From: Opitutus sp. GAS368
Lineage (GTDB): Bacteria > Verrucomicrobiota > Verrucomicrobiia > Opitutales > Opitutaceae
Direction: 5' to 3'
Assembly (NCBI GenBank): GCA_945871005.1
Contig: CAMBUJ010000012.1
Location: 1 to 36,402 of the forward strand
Length of the DNA stretch: 36,402 bases
Shown one piece after another: positions 5,633-17,639 of this stretch; the stretch's first letter is position 1, and each line of letters begins with the position of its first letter. Under the pieces are notes generated by a model that worked only from the letters and a program-made list of their open reading frames with translations, ran no database searches and was not told the DNA's origin. Position numbers and translations under genes: made by a program.

Positions 5633-7819
5633 ATGGCTTCGACTTCCTCCATTGCCTCCACCCTGCGTCGTGCGCTGCTCGTAAAAGTTATTTCCAAGCC
5701 GACCCCGACACGCGAGGACGTCACCGCGGTGATCGAATTAACCTCATCAAAAGTCGTCGAGGCGCTCCAGTCCCAGTCAATGACCCTCTATTTGGTGGAA
5801 GGGAACCAAATCGCCTTCCGCCATGTTTACTACTCGCCCTCCCTCTGGGGGGCCGATTCGGCCAAAGCGGAAAGCTTCAAGGCGAGTGCCGCCAAACTCC
5901 TTGATCTTAAAATCCCCCTCGGCCAAGGCATCGTCGGCAAAGTGATCGCAGGCGGCAAACCGGTGATTTTCCGCAACACCGAGACGCAGGCGCCCTTCAT
6001 GGCCTCGATGGCCCAAACCAGCGGCTTTGAGGTGTGCTCGATGCTCACCGTACCGCTTCAGGTTGGCCCCCTCACCATCGGAGCCATACAGGTGCTCAAC
6101 AAGGAACCGATCGCCGGTACCCAGGGCGTTTTCTCCGAGGGCGATGTAACGCTGCTGCAGGAGGTCGCCGAATATTCGGCCGCCCTGATCCAGCGCATGC
6201 AGGATCCGAAGTTCCAACCCAGCCCGGAAGACACCGCCAAGTTCATCGCCCGCCTGACCGACCATCCGCTCATCACCAAAGCCGAGGAGCTGACCATCGA
6301 CGAGAATTTGGTGACAGCCATCGGCGATGCGATCATCCGCCGCGAACAAATTTTCCCGTGCAGCCGCACCTCGGCCAATTCGATTAGCGTCCTCATGACC
6401 AACCCGTTGGACTTCGCCCGCCGCGAAGCCTTCCAGCAAGCCACCGAACTGGTCATCGACGAGATCTCCATTGCCTCATCCCCCTTCATTGAGGCTCTGG
6501 TCAAAAAACACTTCAAAAACGATCCCGCCGCCACCACCACCGACGTCGATATCTCCAGTGTCGCCGAGGTGATCAGCTCAGCCTACAGCGGCGAAGGCAC
6601 CGGCGAGATCAAGGCCGAAGACCTCGAAAACGAGGACTCCGCCCCGGTCATCCAGCTGACCAATCGCATCATCGAAGACGCCTACATTTGCGGCGCTTCC
6701 GACATCCACATCGAGCCGATGGAAAAGGATCTCGTGATCCGCTACCGCATCGACGGGCTTTGCCAGGAAAAGCTGCGCCTGCCCAAGCAGGTGGCCAACG
6801 GCTTGGTCACCCGCCTGAAAATCATGTGCAACCTCGACATTGCCGAGCGTCGCCTGCCCCAGGACGGCCGCATTGTTTTCAAAAAATACACCAAGAAGAA
6901 CATCGATATCGACCTGCGCGTGGCCACCGGCCCGATGAATCATGGCGAGAAGGTCGTCATGCGCATTCTCGACAAAACCAAGAGCACCCTGCCCTTGCCC
7001 GCCCTCGGCTTCTCCGACGAAAACCTGGCCCGCTACCGCGAGTGCATCCGCATGCCCTATGGGATGATTCTGCACTGCGGCCCCACCGGATCGGGCAAAT
7101 CGATGACTCTGTATTCCGCCCTCGGCGAGGTGAACACGCCCGACGTGAACATCCAAACCGCGGAGGACCCCATCGAATACACCCTGCCTGGGCTCAACCA
7201 GATGCAGATGAACCGCCAAATCGGGCTGACCTTTGCCCGCGCCCTGCGCTGCTACCTGCGCATGGACCCCGACATCATCCTGGTCGGCGAAATCCGCGAC
7301 GAGGAAACCGCGCAAATCGCAGTCGAAGCCGCCCTCACCGGTCACTTGCTCGTCTCCACCCTGCACACCAACGACGCGCCCTCGACGGTCTCGCGCATCG
7401 GGGAAATGGGCGTTGAACCGTTTAACATCTCCGCATCCCTGGTTTGCGTGTGCGCCCAACGCCTCCTGCGCCGCGTCTGCAAAAACTGCAAGCAACCCTA
7501 CGAGCCCGAGGGCAGGGAAAAGAAACTGTTGGAGGAGGCCATCGGCTGGAGCGGCCAAGTCTTCAAAGCCAACGCCCAAGGTTGCCCTACGTGCAACGGT
7601 GCCGGCTACAAAGGCCGCGTCGGTATCCACGAACTCATGGTCAACAACGAGGAGCTGACCAACGCGATCAACAAGGAGGTCGAGGTCGCCGAGCTCAAGC
7701 GCATCGCCATGCGCACCGGCATGAAGACTTTGCACCAAGACTCGATGCTCAAGGTCAAGATGGGCCTGACCACCATCGAGGAAGCCCTGAGCAACGTCCC
7801 GCCCGACCTGATCAAATAA
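5633..7819 (+). CDS. GAF-fused GspE/PilB-type secretion or pilus ATPase
   Basis: A 728-residue cytoplasmic ATPase that would power a type II secretion system or type IV pilus at the inner membrane. Residues about 30-195 look like a GAF domain ([16 protein letters not shown], then [16 protein letters not shown]). About 205-300 is a degenerate N-terminal T2SSE-like domain. From about 330 comes the ATPase: SDIHIEP, Walker A GPTGSGKS (483-490), Walker [11 protein letters not shown] from 547, and the His box [14 protein letters not shown] zinc-type tetracysteine loop follows (C616, C619, C651, C654), then GRVGIHELM. This is the assembly/secretion subtype rather than PilT, which lacks the cysteine loop. 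No pilin, GspF/PilC or secretin gene is nearby. ACC directly precedes the start ATG. Confidence 0.93.
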
Positions 7820-9174: not shown

Positions 9175-12099
9175 TCAGCCCCGGTGGCGGGCGAAGAGCA
9201 GGCCGGCGGGGAGCCGGTCGCCCGCCAGGGCTTGCAGTTCGGCAGTTTCATCCGAGGCGACAACCGCGCGGACGCAGTCGAGTTGGGCGGCCGTCGCGCC
9301 CCACCGACCGAGCAAAGCCAAGGCTGCGGCTTGGTCTGCGGGTAAAGCGTCAAGGGTGCGTTCGCCGGTACAACGCACGGCTTGGGTCAGCGCGGCGCAA
9401 CCAGCCGGGCCGTGCGGCCCGAGTTTGAGTCCACCCAGGGCGGCGAGCAGTTCAGCCAAAATCGCCGGGGGCAGCACGTCGGCCGGATCGCCCGAAAGCG
9501 AACGGCGCGCGCAAAGCCGACCGAGGGCCCAAAGCCAGGCTTCAAGCTGGCCGGGGGCGGTCGCCACCACGCGCGGTAAACGGGTCAGAAGGCGGCGGGT
9601 AAACTCCAGCCGTGTCGCTTGGGGCAGACGCTCCAAAGTCGCGGCGGCACGTATCAGTTCGGCGGGCACCTCGGCCGCACGCAGCTGGTTTTCCCAACGG
9701 CGCCACAACACCAGTTGGCGGGAGGCGTCGAGTCCGCCGGCGACGCGGCGCCACAGAATCCACTCCTGCGTTTGCACACGCGAATCGCGCGGGTAGGCCA
9801 GCCCGAGTTCGCGCACCCACCAGAGTTCGTTCAGGCGAGCCTCATCGAGAGGCCAACCGCAACCGGGACGCAGGCAATATCCCGCCAGGCTCAGCCAAAC
9901 GGCCTCGTGATCGGGCGAGCGCTGGCGCCGGGTGAGCGTGGCGGCCAGCGCGGGCCAGAGACCGCGCAGAGTGGCGGGCGACCAGTCGGCGCGCGGCTGG
10001 CCCAGCAGGCGTTCAAGCTCCGGCAGCAAAGCACGTGGCGCGACCGGCGCGACGACGACGGTCGATGCGGACGCGGCTGCCGCTGCAGGAGTTTTGGCGG
10101 ACACAACGGGCGCGGCAAAGAGCGCTTCGATCGCCGCGAGCGCGGCCGGAAGCGCGGAAGAGACGGGGAGCGAACTGGAGAAGGCGGCCGAAGGCGGGGA
10201 GTTAAGTGCGGGATTGGCGGGACGGCTCGCTTCGGCTTGGGCGCGCAAAGGAAACCGAAGGTCCCAGGCTTCGGGATAACCCGGGAGCGGATTAAGCGGA
10301 AGGCAGCGCACCCGGAGCAGGCCAACGGCATTAAGCGAGGCTTCGAGAGCCACGGGGAGAACACCGTTGGCGGGCAGCGGCGCGCCGGGGGGGATTTGCA
10401 AAATCGCCGTGAGTTCGGGCAAAGCGGTGTGCACGGCACTGGCGGGCCGGACCTCGCCGGGGCGTTCGGCGTCGGGGCGGGCGGAGGAATACAACCGAAA
10501 GGAAATCGGCTGATTAACGCGCGCCAACAACCCCGGCGGGGCCACCCGAACCGGGTGGTCGAGCGGCGTACCGTGTGGGAGTACGCAGAGCAGCGAGGCG
10601 CTGGACTGCCGCGTCATGGCGGTTTCGATCCAGAAGGCGTGGGCGGCATGGCTGGCGATGAGCGGGGCCCCACGCCGGAGTTGCGCGCCAAACCACGCTG
10701 CGCCGAGAGCCACGGCTTGGTCGGGGCGCGGGTTGTCGAGCTCGACGACCGGGTGGCCTTGCCAGGCGCCCAGCAGGCCGGTGAGGCGTTCGCGCAAGAA
10801 AGCGGGGGCCAGCGTGCCTCCGTTATAAAGTACGGCATCGACGCGATGCCCGCGTAGAAAGGCGGCGAGATGCCGGGTGATCGCGGAGTCGGGGGCGTAA
10901 GGCAGCCCGAGTTCGCGCAGGCCACTGGCGGGGCGGAGCGGGTTGGCGTCGGCGGCGCAGGCCGGGAAAAACCCATCGAGCACCCGCGCGCGCACTGCGG
11001 CCGGCTCCAGCGTGAGCGAGCGTGTGGAGCCCCACAAGCCGCCGCCGGGGAAGGTTACGGCAAAGGTATGCGGAGTGTTGTCGTCGGAAGCGCGGGCGAG
11101 GATCGCTTCTTTGGCCTCGCGGGCCGCCGCAACCAGTCCGGGCCAAGCACGGGCATCCTGCGGGCCGCCGAGCAGGGTTTCGATGTGATGCGCCAGGGCG
11201 GCGTCGATGTTGTCGCCACCGAGCAGAAGATGCTCCCCGACCGCGATGCGCTCCAGCACGGGCAGTGCGCTGGCGGCAGTGGGATCGGCCAGTCGGGCGG
11301 TGAACAAACTAAAATCCGAGGTGCCGCCACCGAGGTCGCAAACGAGTAAGTGAAACGCCTGCGATGCAGCAGCAGGTTGGCCGGTGACTTCGGCGTGCAG
11401 GTGTTGTTCAAGCCAACGCTGAAGTCCGGCGGGGCCACCGTGGCGGGCGAGCCAATCGTAGAAAACCGCCTGAGGTTCTTCGAGCAGGCGCACGCTTGCA
11501 GGCAGGCCGGCTTCGCGGGCGGCAGCGAGGGTCAGTTCCTGGGCGTCGGGCGCAAAGGAAGCGGGCACCGTCAGAATAACGTGCGGCGGCGGCTCGGCGG
11601 TGGTGTTAACCGCAGCGGTAAGATAGGGCTGGGCGCTGGCCCAAATTTGCCGCAACAGCAGGGCCGAGGCGCCCACCGGAGAGAGCCGTTCGGCTTCGGG
11701 GATTTCGCTGCTTCCCCAGGGCAAAATCAGCCTGGTGCGATCAACGAGACGGTGCCCAAGCCAGGACTTGGCGGCGTGGATCACGCGACCGGGAGTCCGC
11801 GAGGCGGCGCGGCGGGCGAGGTAACCGGGCACGGGGGCCGCACCGAGGTTCACGCGCTCGTCGGGACGGGGGTGATACAGAAAGGACGGCAGCAGCTCGG
11901 CGGCTAAGGTGGTGCCCCCCTCCTCGGGCTGGACGATCGGCACGATCTGCGGGGAGCAAGCAGCCCCGTCCGGCCCGACGGAAACGAGGGCGAGAGCGCA
12001 GTTACTCGTACCCAGATCGATGCCGATGCTCAGCGGGCAAGGCGACGGAGGCGCGGCGGAAGTGGAGGCGGAATCAGGCACGGGTGAGCGCGGGCTCAA
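9175..12099 (-). CDS. Large Hsp70-family protein with DUF3731-like C-terminal domain
   Basis: A 974-residue cytosolic Hsp70-like ATPase. The nucleotide-binding domain spans about 24-500: phosphate 1 loop GIDLGTSN (26-33), AAKSWLG with a lysine in the region of DnaK K70 (inferred), ILTVPASF, LLEEPQAVFYDW, phosphate 2 VCDLGGGTSDFS (from 253), and YNGG (425-428) in place of DnaK's GGS-type adenosine motif. A beta-rich, substrate-domain-like stretch runs to about 625. An Ala/Pro/Ser linker (about 625-690) leads to a helical domain from 694 with WLSLAGYCLRPGCGWPLDE and ILWRRVAGGL, which I recognise as DUF3731. There is no canonical helical lid or EEVD-type tail. The start is TTG 12099, its first bases overlapping the TGA of the upstream Hsp70; GTG 12081 is an alternative. 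Substrate unknown. Confidence 0.9.
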   Translation of the reverse strand: MSPRSPVPDSASTSAAPPSPCPLSIGIDLGTSNCALALVSVGPDGAACSPQIVPIVQPEEGGTTLAAELLPSFLYHPRPDERVNLGAAPVPGYLARRAASRTPGRVIHAAKSWLGHRLVDRTRLILPWGSSEIPEAERLSPVGASALLLRQIWASAQPYLTAAVNTTAEPPPHVILTVPASFAPDAQELTLAAAREAGLPASVRLLEEPQAVFYDWLARHGGPAGLQRWLEQHLHAEVTGQPAAASQAFHLLVCDLGGGTSDFSLFTARLADPTAASALPVLERIAVGEHLLLGGDNIDAALAHHIETLLGGPQDARAWPGLVAAAREAKEAILARASDDNTPHTFAVTFPGGGLWGSTRSLTLEPAAVRARVLDGFFPACAADANPLRPASGLRELGLPYAPDSAITRHLAAFLRGHRVDAVLYNGGTLAPAFLRERLTGLLGAWQGHPVVELDNPRPDQAVALGAAWFGAQLRRGAPLIASHAAHAFWIETAMTRQSSASLLCVLPHGTPLDHPVRVAPPGLLARVNQPISFRLYSSARPDAERPGEVRPASAVHTALPELTAILQIPPGAPLPANGVLPVALEASLNAVGLLRVRCLPLNPLPGYPEAWDLRFPLRAQAEASRPANPALNSPPSAAFSSSLPVSSALPAALAAIEALFAAPVVSAKTPAAAAASASTVVVAPVAPRALLPELERLLGQPRADWSPATLRGLWPALAATLTRRQRSPDHEAVWLSLAGYCLRPGCGWPLDEARLNELWWVRELGLAYPRDSRVQTQEWILWRRVAGGLDASRQLVLWRRWENQLRAAEVPAELIRAAATLERLPQATRLEFTRRLLTRLPRVVATAPGQLEAWLWALGRLCARRSLSGDPADVLPPAILAELLAALGGLKLGPHGPAGCAALTQAVRCTGERTLDALPADQAAALALLGRWGATAAQLDCVRAVVASDETAELQALAGDRLPAGLLFARHRG

Positions 12100-13931
12100 G
12101 CGGTGCGGACCTTAAATTCGAGCCGCCAGGTGCGGTCGGTCTCGGCGTGGCGAAGGTGAAGTTCCAGTACGCCGAGCTCATTGACCCGGGAAACCAGCCG
12201 CACCGGGATGACGTCGCCCTCGGCAAGACCTTCGCCGGGGGGCAGGACGGTCTCGACGCGGGCGGTTTCTTCCAAGTCGCGCAGCGCGTCGGGGACGAGT
12301 GAGCCGGTCTGGTCGCCGGCGCGTGCAGTGGTGCTAAAGAGGCGGAACTCGACAGGTTCGCCCACCACGAGGCCGAACTCACGCTCGGCGAGGGTGGCGC
12401 TGGTGCCTTCCTCCATGCCCTGGGGCGCAACACAGAGGGCTTTGATCACCGGCTTGAGCCCGGGCACGGCGAGCACGGTGGATTCGAGACCGACGTAGTA
12501 GGATCGGGCGGTGCCCGCACGAATGCGCACGCCGGCGCCTGAGTTGAGCAGACGACCGTAAGCGGCGGCCCCGCGGGCGACCGCCAGATCGTAGTCGGCC
12601 CCGGCGAGCTCGACGGGCGCAGCGCCGAACCAACCCGAAAGCAAATCGAGCACGCGGCGGCGCATGGGGGCGGCTTTGAAGACCCCGCCATTGAACAACA
12701 CATGGGTCGGCCGCAGCAGCCCGTGGGCGCTGGCGGCAAGGGCGTTGGCCACGCGTGCCTGTAAGTCAGCCGAGGCGGCGATGTTCTGGTGACTACGCTG
12801 AAGGAAGCGGGCCAGATGACGGCTCAGCGCGGGATCGGCGGCGTAATTCAGGCCCAATTCACGCAGGCCACCCGCGCTGCGCCCGGCAGGGAATTCCGTG
12901 GGTGCTGTCAGGGGCAAAAAGCCGTCGAGCGCGATCGCTTCGAGCAGGGAGCGTTCAAGGCGCGTGGACACCGTGCTGGCAAAAAGCCGGGCGCTGCGCG
13001 TCGGCACGGCCACGGGCACGCCGGGCAGCGCGGGGTCGTTAAAGATCGCTTCCTTGGCGTCACGCGCGGCCTGCACGAGGGCGAGAAACTGCCACTCATC
13101 CACCGAGTGGCCGGCGTCCTCGAGTTGACTGCGCAGGGCGTGGGCCAGCGCCAAGTCGAGGTTGTCGCCACCGAGCAAAATGTGTTCACCCACGCTAATG
13201 CGATCGAGGGCCAGGGCGCCCGCGTTTTCACCGACCGCGATCAGGCTGAAATCGGCGGTGCCTCCGCCGACGTCGCAAACGAGCACGATATTGCCGGGGC
13301 GCACGTGGCTGCGCCAGTCGGTCCCGGCCGTTTCCAGCCAGGCGTAGAAGGCGGCGAGGGGCTCTTCGAGCAGGAGCGGTTCGGCAAAACCGGCACGACT
13401 GGCGGCGTCGCGGGTGAGGTTGCGGGCGGCCTCGTCGAAGGAGGCGGGCACGGTGATCACGACGCGGGTATCAGCCCAATTAAGCGCGTCGGCGTGGCTC
13501 ACCGCCGCGCGCAGGTGGGTGAGGAAACAAGTCGTGGCCGCGAGAGGGGAAACCTTTTCGGCCGCGGGGACGGCCGTGGATTGCCAAGGCAGGATGGCCG
13601 CGGTGCGGTCAACACGCGCGTTGCATAACCAGGATTTCGCGGAGGTAACGAGCCGGTCGGGCGCGAGGGCGCCGCGGCTGCGGGCGAAACGACCGACCAC
13701 CGGAGCGTCTTTACCTGCGGTCCAAGGCAAGGTAAAGGAGCCGGGCGCTTGTTCGTCGGGATGCGGGAGATACAGGGCGGAGGGCAGCAGCGGAAGCTCC
13801 TCGATTGCCCCGGGCCCCGCGGATTGAACCAGCGGCACAATGCGCGCGGGGGCCGGGCCGGTGACCAAGGCGGCGGCGGAATTACTGGTACCCAGGTCGA
13901 TGCCAAGAGCGAGGGAGCAAGCGGTGTCCAT
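12096..13931 (-). CDS. Short Hsp70-family protein
   Basis: A 611-residue Hsp70-like ATPase, paralogous to the next gene. It has GIDLGTSN (10-17), SAKSWLC, VITVPASF, LLLEEPLAAFYAW, VCDVGGGTADFS (218-229) and FNGG (413-416). After a nucleotide-binding domain of about 460 residues there is only a short beta-rich C-terminal part ending EFKVRTA, so the helical lid of DnaK is missing. No DnaJ or GrpE gene lies in the window. It is 54 bases downstream of the DUF2760 gene and overlaps the large Hsp70 gene at TTGA, which implies co-translation and probably a complex. The order DUF2760, short Hsp70, long Hsp70 occurs in other bacteria as I recall the family, but the function is unassigned. Confidence 0.92.
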   Translation of the reverse strand: MDTACSLALGIDLGTSNSAAALVTGPAPARIVPLVQSAGPGAIEELPLLPSALYLPHPDEQAPGSFTLPWTAGKDAPVVGRFARSRGALAPDRLVTSAKSWLCNARVDRTAAILPWQSTAVPAAEKVSPLAATTCFLTHLRAAVSHADALNWADTRVVITVPASFDEAARNLTRDAASRAGFAEPLLLEEPLAAFYAWLETAGTDWRSHVRPGNIVLVCDVGGGTADFSLIAVGENAGALALDRISVGEHILLGGDNLDLALAHALRSQLEDAGHSVDEWQFLALVQAARDAKEAIFNDPALPGVPVAVPTRSARLFASTVSTRLERSLLEAIALDGFLPLTAPTEFPAGRSAGGLRELGLNYAADPALSRHLARFLQRSHQNIAASADLQARVANALAASAHGLLRPTHVLFNGGVFKAAPMRRRVLDLLSGWFGAAPVELAGADYDLAVARGAAAYGRLLNSGAGVRIRAGTARSYYVGLESTVLAVPGLKPVIKALCVAPQGMEEGTSATLAEREFGLVVGEPVEFRLFSTTARAGDQTGSLVPDALRDLEETARVETVLPPGEGLAEGDVIPVRLVSRVNELGVLELHLRHAETDRTWRLEFKVRTA

Positions 13932-13985
13932 GTGAAGGGCGATGAGCGATGAAGCAGATATTTAAACGCGGCGGGCGGGAGTGGA

Positions 13986-14684
13986 TTAGCGGAGCTCGAT
14001 TTCCGCGGGAGCGACAATGCCGCTGTGCGCCTGGGTGGGATCGCTGGCGTGTGGCAGTTTCACCGCAGCGGTGTTGCGCCACCCCCGATGGAGCAGTTTA
14101 CCGGTGAACGGAGGCTCACCTGCAACCCGGCCCAAGAGGCGATAGGCCTCAGGGTCAAACCCGGGCGCCAGCGTAACCGCTGCACCTTCCTCGGCGGAGT
14201 GCAGGGGCTGGAGGGTGAAGGCGCTTTGCAACGCGGCGCGGCAGCCGGTGTGAACCACGCGGGCAACCGCAGCGACCTGCGCATCCGGCACGGTGCGGAT
14301 GTCCTCCATCGCGAAGTCGAGGAGGCGGCCTTGCTCTTGCAGTTTGGCGAGCAGGCGCAGGGCGCCCCCATCGGCGATTAGGATCGGATCGAAGCAGGGC
14401 GGGGCCGGCTGAGCGGGAATCGGCGCGGGGGGCACGGGGGGCGCGGGGCGCGTTGCCTCCGGCGCGGGCGAAGGAGCGGGTAATGGAGGCGTGGGCACGG
14501 CCGAAGGACGGCGCAGAAAAACTGAGGTGACCGCCAAAACCGAGATCGCGAAGGCCGAGAAACTGGCGCCGCGCAGGGGATCGTCGGCCTGCTGCCAGAG
14601 CCAAAGGCCTAGCCCGGCACTGAGCGCCGAAGCGGTGAGTGATAACACGGTGCTAACTGGGGAACCAGAGGAACGCATGGACAT
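13986..14684 (-). CDS. DUF2760 membrane-anchored protein
   Basis: A 232-residue protein with two N-terminal hydrophobic segments (about 10-30 and 39-57), a proline-rich linker (about 60-97), and a C-terminal domain I recognise as DUF2760: LLAKLQEQGRLLDF, EDIRTVPDAQVAAVARVVH, TGCRAALQ, PPFTGKLLHRGWR, and a tail ending APAEIELR. A two-helix hairpin would leave both ends, including the domain, in the cytoplasm, so it could tether the two Hsp70s to the inner membrane; that is an inference. It is the first gene of the three-gene cassette. Start ATG 14684 or ATG 14678 two codons later; neither has a Shine-Dalgarno. Function unknown. Confidence 0.88.
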   Translation of the reverse strand: MSMRSSGSPVSTVLSLTASALSAGLGLWLWQQADDPLRGASFSAFAISVLAVTSVFLRRPSAVPTPPLPAPSPAPEATRPAPPVPPAPIPAQPAPPCFDPILIADGGALRLLAKLQEQGRLLDFAMEDIRTVPDAQVAAVARVVHTGCRAALQSAFTLQPLHSAEEGAAVTLAPGFDPEAYRLLGRVAGEPPFTGKLLHRGWRNTAAVKLPHASDPTQAHSGIVAPAEIELR

Positions 14685-14781: not shown

Positions 14782-14806
14782 GTAGACCAAGCACGTGTCG
14801 GCCTAC
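14782..14806. repeat. Imperfect GTAG...CTAC palindrome
   Basis: GTAGACCAAGCAC faces GTGTCGGCCTAC; the ends and the CAC/GTG centre pair, with mismatches and a bulge between. The right arm contains the TAG stop of the M23 peptidase gene, just as the 1575-1605 palindrome contains the pgl stop. It may be a REP-like element or a weak transcription end. No T-tract follows. Confidence 0.35.
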
Positions 14807-15825
14807 CGCAACCCCAGCACCAGCTGCAGCATCGTCTCCAAATCACGCCCCGGCTGGTATTGGCCGCGCTTAAGTACCGCGATCGACTTGCAGCGACAGC
14901 GCCGCAACGCCTCGGCATCAACCTCCGAAAACCGCACCTCGTCAGCCCGGTAGCCAATCACATCCACGGAGGAAAGGGGCTTCCAAGCATACGGCAGGCC
15001 AGTGGCGCTTACCTTGATTTCCCAGCCCGCCACGCCCCCCAACGGGATCTCGGCAGTGAGTAACTGAGGATAACGCTGCACCAAATCAGGAACCACTTTA
15101 GTGGCGACGCGAACACGGGCCACCAGAGGAAGCTGAGCGAAATAATCGACCAAACCTGTTACCCGGCGGGCACGGAACTGGGTGAAAAAATCCAGGGCAT
15201 CAATGCCCATCAAGTTCATCCCGTTGTAAAGCCCCTGCTCGTTGCGACTGCCGAACTTTTTCCAGGCGTACCACGACTGAAACTGCCGGGTGAGCATCAG
15301 CCCGATCTCAAAATGCAAATGCGCGCGGTCCCGGGGAATCGTACCCCCGCCTGAGGTGCGCCCCATGGTGGCGATCACCTGCCCGGCCTTGACCGCATCG
15401 CCCGCTTTTATGCCCGGGACGACGGCGCTTAAGTGGGCGTAGAGGCTGTAAACCGGGGGCTGCACCTCCGCATGCTCGATCACGATGTACCGGCCGTAAT
15501 TACTCTCCCCGGCGCGGTTATTAATGTGGCGCACCACACCCGGCATGGCGGCTAAGATGTCGTCAATGGATTCACCACGAGCATCGCGTTTAATCGGCTT
15601 TAAATCCAGGCCCTCGTGGAACTGGTGCCCGCCACTGCGGGCGCAGCCAAACAAACCCGAGGCCGGATCACCCGAGGCGGTGGCTTGTACGTAGGTTTCG
15701 ATCGGCTTGCCCTCCGCGTAGGCCGTGTTCGGCGTCGGCCAAACCAACTCCAACCGCGGTTCGCCAGCCCACAGCCAAGCAGGAGCGAGGATCGGCAACC
15801 ACCAACTCAGACGAGACCGCTTCAC
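14803..15825 (-). CDS. M23 family metallopeptidase, exported
   Basis: A 340-residue protein with an N-terminal signal peptide (MKRSRLSWW..., likely cut near WAG, residues 19-21). It has a LytM-type zinc peptidase domain: H70-xxx-D74 within GGHQFHEGLDLKP, YSLYAHLS, AGQVIATMGRTSGGG, and H169-L-H171-F-E. The ligand set H70, D74, H171 is complete, so an active peptidoglycan endopeptidase in the periplasm is likely. The C-terminal 130 residues after the domain are not recognised. It starts with GTG only 3 bases after the stop of the lipoprotein gene, implying co-translation. The TAG stop is inside the palindrome at 14782-14806. Confidence 0.9.
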   Translation of the reverse strand: MKRSRLSWWLPILAPAWLWAGEPRLELVWPTPNTAYAEGKPIETYVQATASGDPASGLFGCARSGGHQFHEGLDLKPIKRDARGESIDDILAAMPGVVRHINNRAGESNYGRYIVIEHAEVQPPVYSLYAHLSAVVPGIKAGDAVKAGQVIATMGRTSGGGTIPRDRAHLHFEIGLMLTRQFQSWYAWKKFGSRNEQGLYNGMNLMGIDALDFFTQFRARRVTGLVDYFAQLPLVARVRVATKVVPDLVQRYPQLLTAEIPLGGVAGWEIKVSATGLPYAWKPLSSVDVIGYRADEVRFSEVDAEALRRCRCKSIAVLKRGQYQPGRDLETMLQLVLGLR

Positions 15826-15828
15826 GTG

Positions 15829-16335
15829 TTATTTAGCCTTGGCGATTTTCTTCTGCAGCTCGACCGAGGTGCCGTCCAAGTTCTTAACCAACTCGGGCAA
15901 CATTTCATCGGGTAAAGCGGCGAATACCGCGATCGACCCAGTGTTAAATGCTCCATCAATCACCCGCGCCCCAACCGGTTTGTCGTTGATGAAAAGAACC
16001 AAGCGCTTCCCCTGATTGTTGCCGGTGACTCGATACACATCCCGCGCCGCATCGGCGGTCAGACTGAACACCAAAAATTTACCGAGATCCGACTGGGCCA
16101 AGGACACTCCCGTGTAATCAAACTCAGTGACGATGGGCTTCGCGTTCACCGCAATCTGCACGCCACTGATCGGTAGGGTAACGGTGGCGAAAGCTTCCCG
16201 TTCATTGGCCTCGATCAAAAACCGCGCCACCGTGGTGTCGTAGTCTTTTTTCTTGCTGGACGTATTGCAGCCGACCACCGCCCACAAGGAGCCGAGTGTG
16301 ATGATCACGGAGAGAAACCGAACGGAAATTTTCAT
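15829..16335 (-). CDS. Putative lipoprotein with SecD-head-like region
   Basis: A 168-residue protein with a lipoprotein signal: positively charged start, hydrophobic run, and a lipobox-like VVGC with the cysteine at 23, followed by a Ser/Lys-rich linker. The segment LGKFLVFSLTADAARDVYRVT, LVLFINDKPVGARVIDGAF and the tail DEMLPELVKNL resembles the SecD P1-head/translocase pattern, in which a beta strand is followed by I..G...I.G.F....A..L. That likeness is by eye only. It is directly upstream of the M23 gene, with a 3-base gap, so the two products probably act together in the envelope. Confidence 0.75.
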   Translation of the reverse strand: MKISVRFLSVIITLGSLWAVVGCNTSSKKKDYDTTVARFLIEANEREAFATVTLPISGVQIAVNAKPIVTEFDYTGVSLAQSDLGKFLVFSLTADAARDVYRVTGNNQGKRLVLFINDKPVGARVIDGAFNTGSIAVFAALPDEMLPELVKNLDGTSVELQKKIAKAK

Positions 16336-16394
16336 AAGATAAAGAGGCTTTGGTCTTAAGTGCTGTGGGTTGCAAGGAGCGACCTGCTATACGG

Positions 16395-17582
16395 TTACTT
16401 TGTGGCCGGATCGGCGAAGGCGTCCATTATCTCCGCGCCCACCGTGTCCGCGATGATCCGGCCTCGCGGGGTCAGCCGGAGATGACCGTCGACCACTTCA
16501 GCCACCGCCGCGTCCTGCAGCCGACTGATCTGAACCTCAACTTCGGGCCACGGCGCGGAGGGAAAACGCCCGCGCAACTCGGCCAGATTCACCCCGGCGT
16601 TCATGCGTAGGCCAAAGATGAGCGCATCCTCGGCGAGCAACGCCGGGGTCAACACGACGCGATCCTCGGTGACCCGTTCGCCCAAGCCGAGGCGGAACTG
16701 CCATTTGTCCAGATCAGCCACATTGCCCCCGCGAACCCCTGCATGCTGGGAGGCCGCCGAAGGCCCGAGCCCGACCCATTCGTGCATGCGCCACGTATTC
16801 AGATTGTGTAGGCAGGCATGGCCGGGACGGGCGAAATTGGACACCTCGTATTGCCCGTAGCCGGCCGCCGCCAAGCTCGCCCAGGTGGTTTCATAGAGCC
16901 GGGCTTCATGCTCCACATCCAACTTCACCTGCCCCTTGGACAGTTTCACCCACAGCTTGGTGTCCTCCTCGAAAGTCAGGCAGTAGGTTGAAAGATGATC
17001 CGGAGCTAGGGCCAACGCCTCGCCCAAATCGGCGAGCCACGCCGCCTCGTCCTGTCCGGGCAGGGCAAACATCATATCAATATTCACGCTGGCGAAATCC
17101 GCCGCGCGGATGCGTTCGTAAGCGCGGAACACCTGCTCACGGGTATGTTGCCGACCAAGTCCATCGAGCAACGTCGGCTGAAAAGATTGCGCCCCCATCG
17201 AGATGCGCGTCACCCCGATCTCCTTGAGCGCGGCCAAACGGGCTTCGGTAACCGATGCGGGCGCCATTTCCACGGTCCACTCCCGTAATCCGCCGCCCAA
17301 GCGCGTGTGCACGATGCTACCGAGTGCGCGGATATCTTTGGGCGAAAGTAGTCCAGGCGTTCCCCCGCCCCAAAACACCGTTTCCACGCTGCGCGCGTCC
17401 CAGCGAACTAGGTCGGCTTCGCGGGCAATACTTTGCAGGTAGCGGCTGATGCCGTCTGCGGTGGGTGCGGTCTGGTAAAACGCGCAAAAATCACAGGTGG
17501 AGGCACAAAACGGCACATGCACATAAAGACCCAACGGATCGGTGCGATCGACTCGGGCCGCTTGGTGATTGATTTCGCTCAT
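16395..17582 (-). CDS. hemW: HemW-like radical SAM heme chaperone
   Basis: A 395-residue radical SAM protein. ATG 17582 is preferred to an upstream TTG at 17618 because it starts just before the conserved LGLYVHVPFC. The cluster motif is C26-xxx-C30-xx-C33 (CASTCDFC), followed by AFY instead of the extra cysteine of HemN, so it belongs to HemW rather than oxygen-independent coproporphyrinogen oxidase HemN. GGGTPGLL, ISMGAQSF, NIDMMFALPGQ and YEVSNFARPG are all family marks. HemW binds heme and delivers it to respiratory enzymes. It is divergent from the TIG lipoprotein gene, 57 bases away. Confidence 0.93.
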   Translation of the reverse strand: MSEINHQAARVDRTDPLGLYVHVPFCASTCDFCAFYQTAPTADGISRYLQSIAREADLVRWDARSVETVFWGGGTPGLLSPKDIRALGSIVHTRLGGGLREWTVEMAPASVTEARLAALKEIGVTRISMGAQSFQPTLLDGLGRQHTREQVFRAYERIRAADFASVNIDMMFALPGQDEAAWLADLGEALALAPDHLSTYCLTFEEDTKLWVKLSKGQVKLDVEHEARLYETTWASLAAAGYGQYEVSNFARPGHACLHNLNTWRMHEWVGLGPSAASQHAGVRGGNVADLDKWQFRLGLGERVTEDRVVLTPALLAEDALIFGLRMNAGVNLAELRGRFPSAPWPEVEVQISRLQDAAVAEVVDGHLRLTPRGRIIADTVGAEIMDAFADPATK

Positions 17583-17639
17583 TGCCAAGATCAGGCGTTT
17601 CTGTTGCCTAACCAACAACTTTTAAATCACAAAATCCCA

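Follow-up and report, generated by a model that had tools for sequence, protein, structure and literature searches.

Two unusual Hsp70s and a DUF2760 protein occur as a set in bacterial genomes and may form a dedicated chaperone machine

Introduction

Many bacteria hold odd Hsp70s whose partners are unknown, and the partner proteins of better described systems offer a frame for comparison. GrpE, the partner of DnaK and DnaJ, has a long N-terminal coiled-coil helix; in eukaryotes, Hsp110 serves as an exchange factor for Hsp70; and the ribosome-associated complex (RAC) of yeast, whose Ssz1 is a non-canonical Hsp70, contains a J-protein. Here we describe a cassette of three genes, encoding a DUF2760 protein, a short Hsp70 and a long Hsp70 with a DUF3731 tail, on contig CAMBUJ010000012.1 of Opitutus sp. 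GAS368 (Verrucomicrobiota). The window, meaning the whole stretch of DNA analysed, is this contig (C12) of 36,402 bases, part of a 3.48-Mb draft genome.

Among the closest known proteins is MXAN_5323 of Myxococcus xanthus, an Hsp70 of 925 amino acids assigned to class cd10170 (PMC8265645). According to the available part of that report, its deletion reduced sporulation and peroxide survival, left swarming and predation wild-type-like, and had no obvious effect on growth at high or low temperature or at high osmotic pressure. The protein failed to rescue E. coli dnaK, and its heat induction was suggested by RNA data, not by quantitative PCR (PMC8265645). The words DUF, operon, GrpE and DnaJ are absent from the main text of the report. 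A full-text search of the open-licence PubMed Central (PMC) literature returned no paper naming DUF2760, DUF3731 or their Pfam accessions, and a phrase search of the same literature found none on unusual bacterial Hsp70s. The cassette is thus not named as such in the literature searched, in agreement with the initial annotation of the window, which had described it as lacking an assigned function; from genome evidence, the two odd Hsp70s now gain a fixed set of partners.

Results

We surveyed 443 genomes from two phyla, 194 from the window's own phylum and 249 Pseudomonadota. DUF2760 was present in 53 genomes and DUF3731 in 53, with both in 52, and the short Hsp70 was found in all 53 DUF2760 genomes. 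The recurrence of this gene order in other bacteria, expected in the initial annotation, greatly exceeds chance (Fisher test of the co-occurrence of DUF2760 and DUF3731, p 1.2e-65, a value not to be taken literally as the genomes are related). Within the window's phylum, 34 genomes carried DUF2760 and 35 carried DUF3731, namely the same 34 plus one further genome (G127). A short-Hsp70 match was obtained in exactly the 34 DUF2760 carriers and in none of the other own-phylum genomes, with expectation (E) values of 5e-94 or lower in 32 and of 4e-86 and 2.6e-83 in two, against 2.1e-15 for the best non-cassette match. In Pseudomonadota, DUF2760 was present in 19 and DUF3731 in 18 of the 249 genomes, and the short Hsp70, counted among the DUF2760 carriers, in 19 of 19. 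The question raised with the initial annotation, whether both Hsp70s always accompany DUF2760, can accordingly be answered for both phyla: the short protein does so in 34 of 34 and 19 of 19 carriers, the long one in 34 of 34 and 18 of 19. The exception is G244, whose contig breaks off at the place expected for the long gene, next to DUF2760 and the short gene (91-1914).

The DUF3731 match in G127, a genome without DUF2760, is limited to model positions 148-248 and interrupted by a stop. The corresponding locus (L085, G127:C104:30283-31124) holds a long-Hsp70 remnant with internal stops, and the cassette there is apparently decaying. Among 22 named genomes searched (17 loci without a complete long gene and 5 with one), DUF3731 was detected in 21; in the remaining one (the genome of L171), the cassette is truncated by the contig end, where an Hsp70 just begins. 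Ten families of the window's phylum (f1, f2, f4, f18, f20, f22, f23, f25, f30 and f39) mix carriers and non-carriers, and their members, some of them incomplete genomes, have all three genes or none, the G127 remnant apart.

Joint inheritance of adjacent genes does not account for this pattern. All three genes are adjacent on one contig in 19 of the 34 own-phylum carriers, and adjacent across a contig break in one more (G050). Five carriers keep DUF2760 and the short gene together with the long gene elsewhere (G148, G055, G114, G015, G157), one keeps the two Hsp70 genes together with DUF2760 elsewhere (G119), and seven have all three genes apart (G191, G167, G079, G083, G086, G023, G189). On the single 5.7-Mb contig of G083, the short gene lies at 2.10, the long gene at 3.90 and DUF2760 at 4.16 Mb, so that 0.26 to 2 Mb separate the genes. 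In G125, DUF2760 and the short gene are apart from the long gene, and this genome is not counted as scattered because each of the two pieces sits at the end of a contig. The full set is thus retained despite scattering in at least 13 of the 34 carriers. In Comamonas testosteroni JL40 (G210), the long gene is located ~18 kb from the short one. Taken together, the two unusual Hsp70s and the DUF2760 protein form an obligate set in the genomes sampled, present or absent together, also when scattered.

A scan of genome contigs recovered at least 549 DUF2760 relatives among 586 candidate stretches. By record title, the best 80 of these belong to Myxococcota, Pseudomonadota, Verrucomicrobiota/Lentisphaerae and Planctomycetota, with one metagenome-assembled genome (MAG) of Acidobacteria and one unassigned MAG. 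In the same best 80, the order DUF2760-short-long was found at 63 loci, DUF2760-short at 10, DUF2760-short with a partial further Hsp70 at one, and DUF2760 without a full-length short gene at six; four layouts that appeared as short-DUF2760-long are due to over-long open reading frames (ORFs). Of these six loci, three are truncated by a contig end, and the other three, all from Planctomycetota (L149, L155, L169), lack an adjoining short gene in genomes that do have DUF3731.

In a tree of short Hsp70s (34 own-phylum and 24 named proteins), the window falls into a clade of 11 members with a support of 100/100, together with other orders and families, and G010, from the window's own family, groups with Myxococcota and other Verrucomicrobiota. 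Because the window's clade spans orders and families and a member of the same family sits elsewhere in the tree, the cassette appears to have moved laterally. Matches to DUF2760 were found in 11 of 72,556 plasmid records. The cassette is complete, and so able to travel, on two Bradyrhizobium plasmids typed as conjugative (L203, NZ_CP088103.1; L204, NZ_CP121651.1), near groES-groL on one and between trb genes and a topoisomerase on the other. Relatives of the window's DUF2760 protein were present in none of 71 candidate viral-contig stretches, in a search that reaches close relatives only.

At one locus of Candidatus Thiodictyon syntrophicum (L205, NZ_CP020372.1), the neighbourhood of DUF2760 and the short Hsp70 includes a TIR protein and genes with anti-phage annotations (DUF499, DUF3780, DUF1156, phospholipase D-like). 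PADLOC did not assign the cassette to a known defence system and gave only weak Hsp70 matches to PDC-M61B (E 2.7e-6 and 0.0012).

The three genes lie in the window where the initial annotation had placed them, all on the minus strand, and profile searches identified their domains. The DUF2760 protein (13986..14684, minus; 232 amino acids) matches PF10816 at residues 107-230 of 232 (E 1.2e-39). From hydropathy and an AlphaFold2 model, it consists of hydrophobic segments at about 13-29 and 41-57, a Pro/Ala-rich linker and a C-terminal domain (105-232). The short Hsp70 (12096..13931, minus; 611 amino acids; PF00012, E 8.8e-16) comprises a nucleotide-binding domain and a beta substrate-binding-like region without a lid. 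The long Hsp70 (9175..12099, minus; 974 amino acids; PF00012, E 5e-7) has the same two parts, followed by an all-helical C-terminal part with PF12531/DUF3731 at residues 728-967 (E 7.3e-50). A gap of 54 nt separates DUF2760 from the short gene. The overlap of the two Hsp70 frames noted in the initial annotation holds if the long gene starts at a TTG codon (4 nt, 12096-12099) and disappears if it starts at an in-frame GTG six codons downstream. In named cassettes, for which gene starts were chosen by script, the median spacing is -4 nt between DUF2760 and the short gene (n = 68) and 6 nt between the short and the long gene (n = 61).

Both Hsp70s exceed the PF00012 cut-off and contain the motifs GIDLGTSN, GGGT and NGG, intact as initially described. 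In E. coli DnaK numbering, we take K70, E171, D194 and T199 to be catalytic, P143 to be the switch proline, and R167 and N170 to be contacts of the J-protein. Because K70, P143, E171, D194 and T199 are invariant in the aligned proteins (58 of 58 short and 51 of 51 long Hsp70s), both Hsp70s should bind and split ATP. The switch residue R151 is R in 54 of 58 short Hsp70s (K in four) and in 50 of 51 long ones, with Q in the long Hsp70 of the window. N170 is replaced by E in all 109 proteins. R167 is kept in only one of 58 short Hsp70s, most of which have T, and the long Hsp70s have R in 22 of 51, including that of the window, and T in 23. Neither Hsp70 has the hydrophobic interdomain linker, which reads VLLLDVSPL in the DnaK of this genome and is replaced by an RIxGGxARAYY-type sequence: the window's short Hsp70 has it remade as GVRIRAGTARSYYVG, the short family is RIRGGTARAYYVG-like, and the long family has a related sequence.

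The model of the long Hsp70 (mean predicted local distance difference test, pLDDT, 82.2) is all helix beyond residue 650. Its residues 21-626 align with DnaK 1-486 of 9a5j_A, itself an integrative model, over 461 residues (Z 36.4, root-mean-square deviation, rmsd, 5.3) and with 7krv_A over 466 residues (Z 33.4, rmsd 4.4), a structural alignment that identifies a DnaK-type beta substrate-binding domain. The alpha-helical lid of DnaK is absent from both proteins, as first noted from the sequence: the short Hsp70 stops at the end of the region corresponding to the beta part of the long one, which continues into the different helical part with DUF3731. The two Hsp70s probably arose by an old duplication. 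Over the main matching segments, identity between the window's short Hsp70 and the long Hsp70s of carriers is 35-49 % (49 % for the ATPase part of its own partner), in line with such an origin. Neither protein fits the two specialised classes compared. TIGR01991 for HscA scored 78.8 bits (short) and 46.5 bits (long) against a cut-off of 708.55; NF008673 for the PRK11678-type chaperone, presumably YegD, scored 35.9 bits for the short protein against a cut-off of 331, and the long protein was missing from its matches down to the E limit of 0.01.

The two membrane segments described for the window's DUF2760 protein are visible by hydropathy (17-residue Kyte-Doolittle means of 1.62 and 2.04), the first lying in a part of the model with a pLDDT below 50. 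Membrane tethering by DUF2760, as initially proposed, was not supported as a general rule. With a 17-residue mean of at least 1.6 as the threshold for a clear segment and 1.3 for a weaker one, two clear segments were found in 11 of the 34 own-phylum DUF2760 proteins, which belong to exactly the genomes of the 11-member short-Hsp70 clade. Three proteins have one strong segment (L048, L050, L052; L050 plus a weak second), two have weak ones (L038, L049), and the remaining 18 have none at 1.3. In a joint count of 105 DUF2760 proteins, 24 reached 1.6 or more when means were taken over 19 residues. Since two clear segments occur in only 11 of 34 carriers, within one clade, the predicted membrane anchor is a lineage trait and anchoring is not the general role of DUF2760. 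A candidate amphipathic helix (AFKAFFxxLK) in the segment-less proteins was rejected, its hydrophobic moment being no better than that of shuffles (mean z 0.23).

The AlphaFold2 model of the DUF2760 protein was built from 72 sequences (mean pLDDT 74; ten-residue means of 82-96 from residue 111, except 62 at 211-220) and shows helices at 105-117, 119-126 and 139-155, followed by short strands. Foldseek against 350,542 chains of the PDB placed GrpE at ranks 1 and 2 (4ani_B, E 0.38; 9blt_B, E 0.56), neither significant. When 297 Foldseek chains were aligned with VIA-align, five GrpE entries came first (9bls, 9blt, 9a81, 4ani, 1dkg; Z 5.7-4.7 over 97-102 residues), followed by an unrelated chain with a Z of 2.3. 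Although the score is weak, a first rank by chance for precisely an Hsp70 partner is unlikely, because a GrpE query matches only 7 of 177,635 distinct PDB sequences. We consider a GrpE-like fold of the DUF2760 domain moderately probable on the basis of these comparisons. No GrpE-type long N-terminal coiled coil was found: the window's protein has the two hydrophobic segments and the Pro/Ala-rich linker, and none was seen by eye in aligned relatives. DUF2760 does not seem to replace GrpE for DnaK, since an ordinary GrpE is present in 33 of the 34 own-phylum carriers (all but G148).

MXAN_5323 is probably the long Hsp70 of a cassette, judged by length and domain class, the sequences themselves not having been compared: the long Hsp70 measures 925 amino acids in three Myxococcus loci (L100, L123, L124) and 924 in L121, and Myxococcus eversor (the genome of L123) has few Hsp70 frames of like size, the open frames within 100 amino acids of 925 being the cassette long Hsp70 (936) and one of 891. 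Two other M. xanthus proteins were set aside as members, SglK as a PRK00290 protein (PMC8265645) and StkA for its downstream neighbours, SCP2-like and small PhaE-like proteins in the part of the report available (PMC4319316). A metagenomic Hsp70 showed no link to the cassette family in the available part of its description (PMC9717686). In B. pseudomallei, a dehydrogenase mutant loses a 65,225-Da member of the Hsp70 family, as given in the accessible part of PMC7085900. The forward primer of that study encodes GEHILL, a sequence that four relatives share in their short Hsp70 (with masses of 65,489 and 65,745 in two of them), but the reverse primer does not fit these; we treat this as a lead only.

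Around the cassette, an M23 peptidase, a 168-amino-acid protein and HemW precede it on the same strand (14803-17618, minus) and may share its transcript in the window; a convergent tyrosyl-tRNA synthetase (TyrS) lies downstream. Relatives of these four were found in 1, 1, 2 and 2 of 137 cassette loci, respectively, the window included. Nine families, from 1,388 mechanically called neighbouring ORFs, occurred at six or more loci and in at least two groups; none is a constant fourth partner, a DnaJ not being excluded as the families themselves were not scanned. The widest was present at 25 loci and its start resembles a response regulator by eye. The window contains no heat-shock operator resembling CIRCE (controlling inverted repeat of chaperone expression) at up to three mismatches; between 8900 and 15900, no minus-strand promoter match was obtained and terminator-like sites were not above shuffles. 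Elsewhere in the window, the plus strand encodes a T2SSE/PilB-like ATPase with a GAF domain preceding MshEN (5633-7819). The genome also holds an additional Hsp70-like protein (437-amino-acid open frame; G000:C75; L032, L036) beside DnaK and the cassette pair.

Discussion

Our data make a strong case for a three-gene module; its proposed activity, nucleotide exchange, is a testable lead. By a narrow balance, the best explanation is a dedicated three-part Hsp70 machine, apart from the genome's own DnaK and GrpE, that includes a GrpE-like exchange factor. The short and the long Hsp70 would act as ATP-driven, client-binding partners derived from an old duplication, and the DUF2760 protein would dock on one or both through its GrpE-like domain to drive nucleotide exchange for the pair. 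Activation by a classical J-protein seems unlikely. For the window's clade, tethering of the exchange factor by its two N-terminal segments would place the cycle at the inner membrane face; in most other members examined, this part consists only of a short helix and a Pro/Ala-rich linker. The job is perhaps to protect or refold proteins under oxidative stress or during dormancy, which is the weakest step of the proposal. As a wider and more tentative suggestion, at least five phyla (by record title) could hold a second full Hsp70 engine composed of a lidless paralogue pair, without a J-protein, and a GrpE-fold DUF2760 exchange factor without detectable GrpE sequence, with cycling confined to the membrane surface in one clade.

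Several observations weigh against this explanation. The Foldseek match to GrpE is weak (E 0.38, probability 0.23, TM score 0.25/0.33), and the VIA-align superpositions have an rmsd of 5.1-6.4 Å at Z values for which the tool warns (Z below 8) that only a common arrangement may be indicated. At the sequence level, hhalign of DUF2760 and GrpE in several modes gave probabilities of 0.06-0.3 %, and a search of 72 DUF2760 proteins with an E limit of 10 yielded no PF01025 match (HMMER filters drop most weak matches). With the same limit, a DUF2760 profile retrieved nothing from the PDB, and GrpE was also missing from the phmmer results of two other members. Cross-scoring of hidden Markov models was no better than shuffles: the DUF2760 model scored GrpE above 1,293 control C-termini on average, but about as high as shuffled GrpE (-0.94 vs -1.67, standard deviation 3.66), and the reverse test yielded nothing. 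Neither a client nor a regulator nor a constant fourth gene was found for the cassette, in searches that did not include one for DnaJ. The link to M. xanthus is drawn from length and domain class, and the phenotype there is not specific: the other four deletable hsp70 genes show the same two defects in the available part of PMC8265645. A phmmer search with the window's protein placed GrpE 3a6m third (E 0.84), after two unrelated hits, and paired its FDP and RGF with FDP and RGW of the query. A DUF2760/GrpE alignment made by eye (FDP ... GW/GY ... PA.V.V) was discarded, being unsupported by hhalign, profile, phmmer and cross-scoring, and the resemblance is kept as a structural lead only.

Among the alternatives, DUF2760 could be a scaffold or membrane anchor that joins the Hsp70s without exchange, with the long Hsp70 acting as the exchange factor of the short one in analogy to Hsp110. 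The paralogy and similar design of the two Hsp70s, the added helical tail of the long one and the membrane segments in the window's clade would all fit. Yet most own-phylum members lack clear segments though their DUF2760 domain is conserved, the long Hsp70s keep their catalytic residues throughout (51/51), and the DUF2760 model ranks GrpE first; we regard this arrangement as unlikely. Because that model points to GrpE, a role in nucleotide exchange appears, weakly, likelier than a mere anchor.

More doubtful still is that the Hsp70s serve as regulatory ATPase switches for a specific pathway, as proposed for StkA, which is discussed as a possible signalling Hsp70 in the available part of PMC4319316. 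The missing lid, the altered linker and the changed J-contact residues would suit a switch, as would the inability of MXAN_5323 to replace dnaK in E. coli (PMC8265645, available part); on the other hand, the catalytic residues are kept in both proteins, the beta substrate-binding-like domain of the long one aligns to DnaK, and no constant neighbouring pathway is seen at cassette loci. That the genes are mere neighbours, co-inherited without a joint function, is very improbable. Adjacency in 20 of the 34 own-phylum carriers, one of them over a contig break, is what such a reading predicts, but it is refuted in substance because the scattered genomes, among them single-contig G083, keep all parts, and joint presence or absence in the ten mixed families speaks against it as well.

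The lead from the predicted fold gives DUF2760 a testable activity. If DUF2760 is indeed an exchange factor, an unnamed domain would gain a function, and Hsp70 machines that perhaps work without a J-protein would become open to direct assay.

Compared with known systems, the cassette combines familiar parts in a different arrangement. MXAN_5323, whose sequence was not compared, shares the length of 925 amino acids and the cd10170 class with cassette long Hsp70s, and in the available part of PMC8265645 it was studied alone. Like DnaK-DnaJ-GrpE, the cassette has Hsp70 ATPase and beta substrate-binding-like domains and a small partner with a predicted domain resembling GrpE; unlike that system, it has two Hsp70s, no lid, a different linker and changed J-contacts, and its DUF2760 partner has neither detectable sequence homology to GrpE nor a long coiled coil. 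The eukaryotic Hsp70-Hsp110 pair likewise joins a short and a long paralogue, as the cassette possibly does, whereas the extension in the cassette is DUF3731. Yeast Ssz1/RAC shares the presence of a non-canonical Hsp70, and Foldseek matched the long protein to RAC entries (6sr6, 5mb9), behind DnaK and BiP; RAC, however, includes a J-protein, whereas the third partner of the cassette is DUF2760 and both of its Hsp70s keep their catalytic residues.

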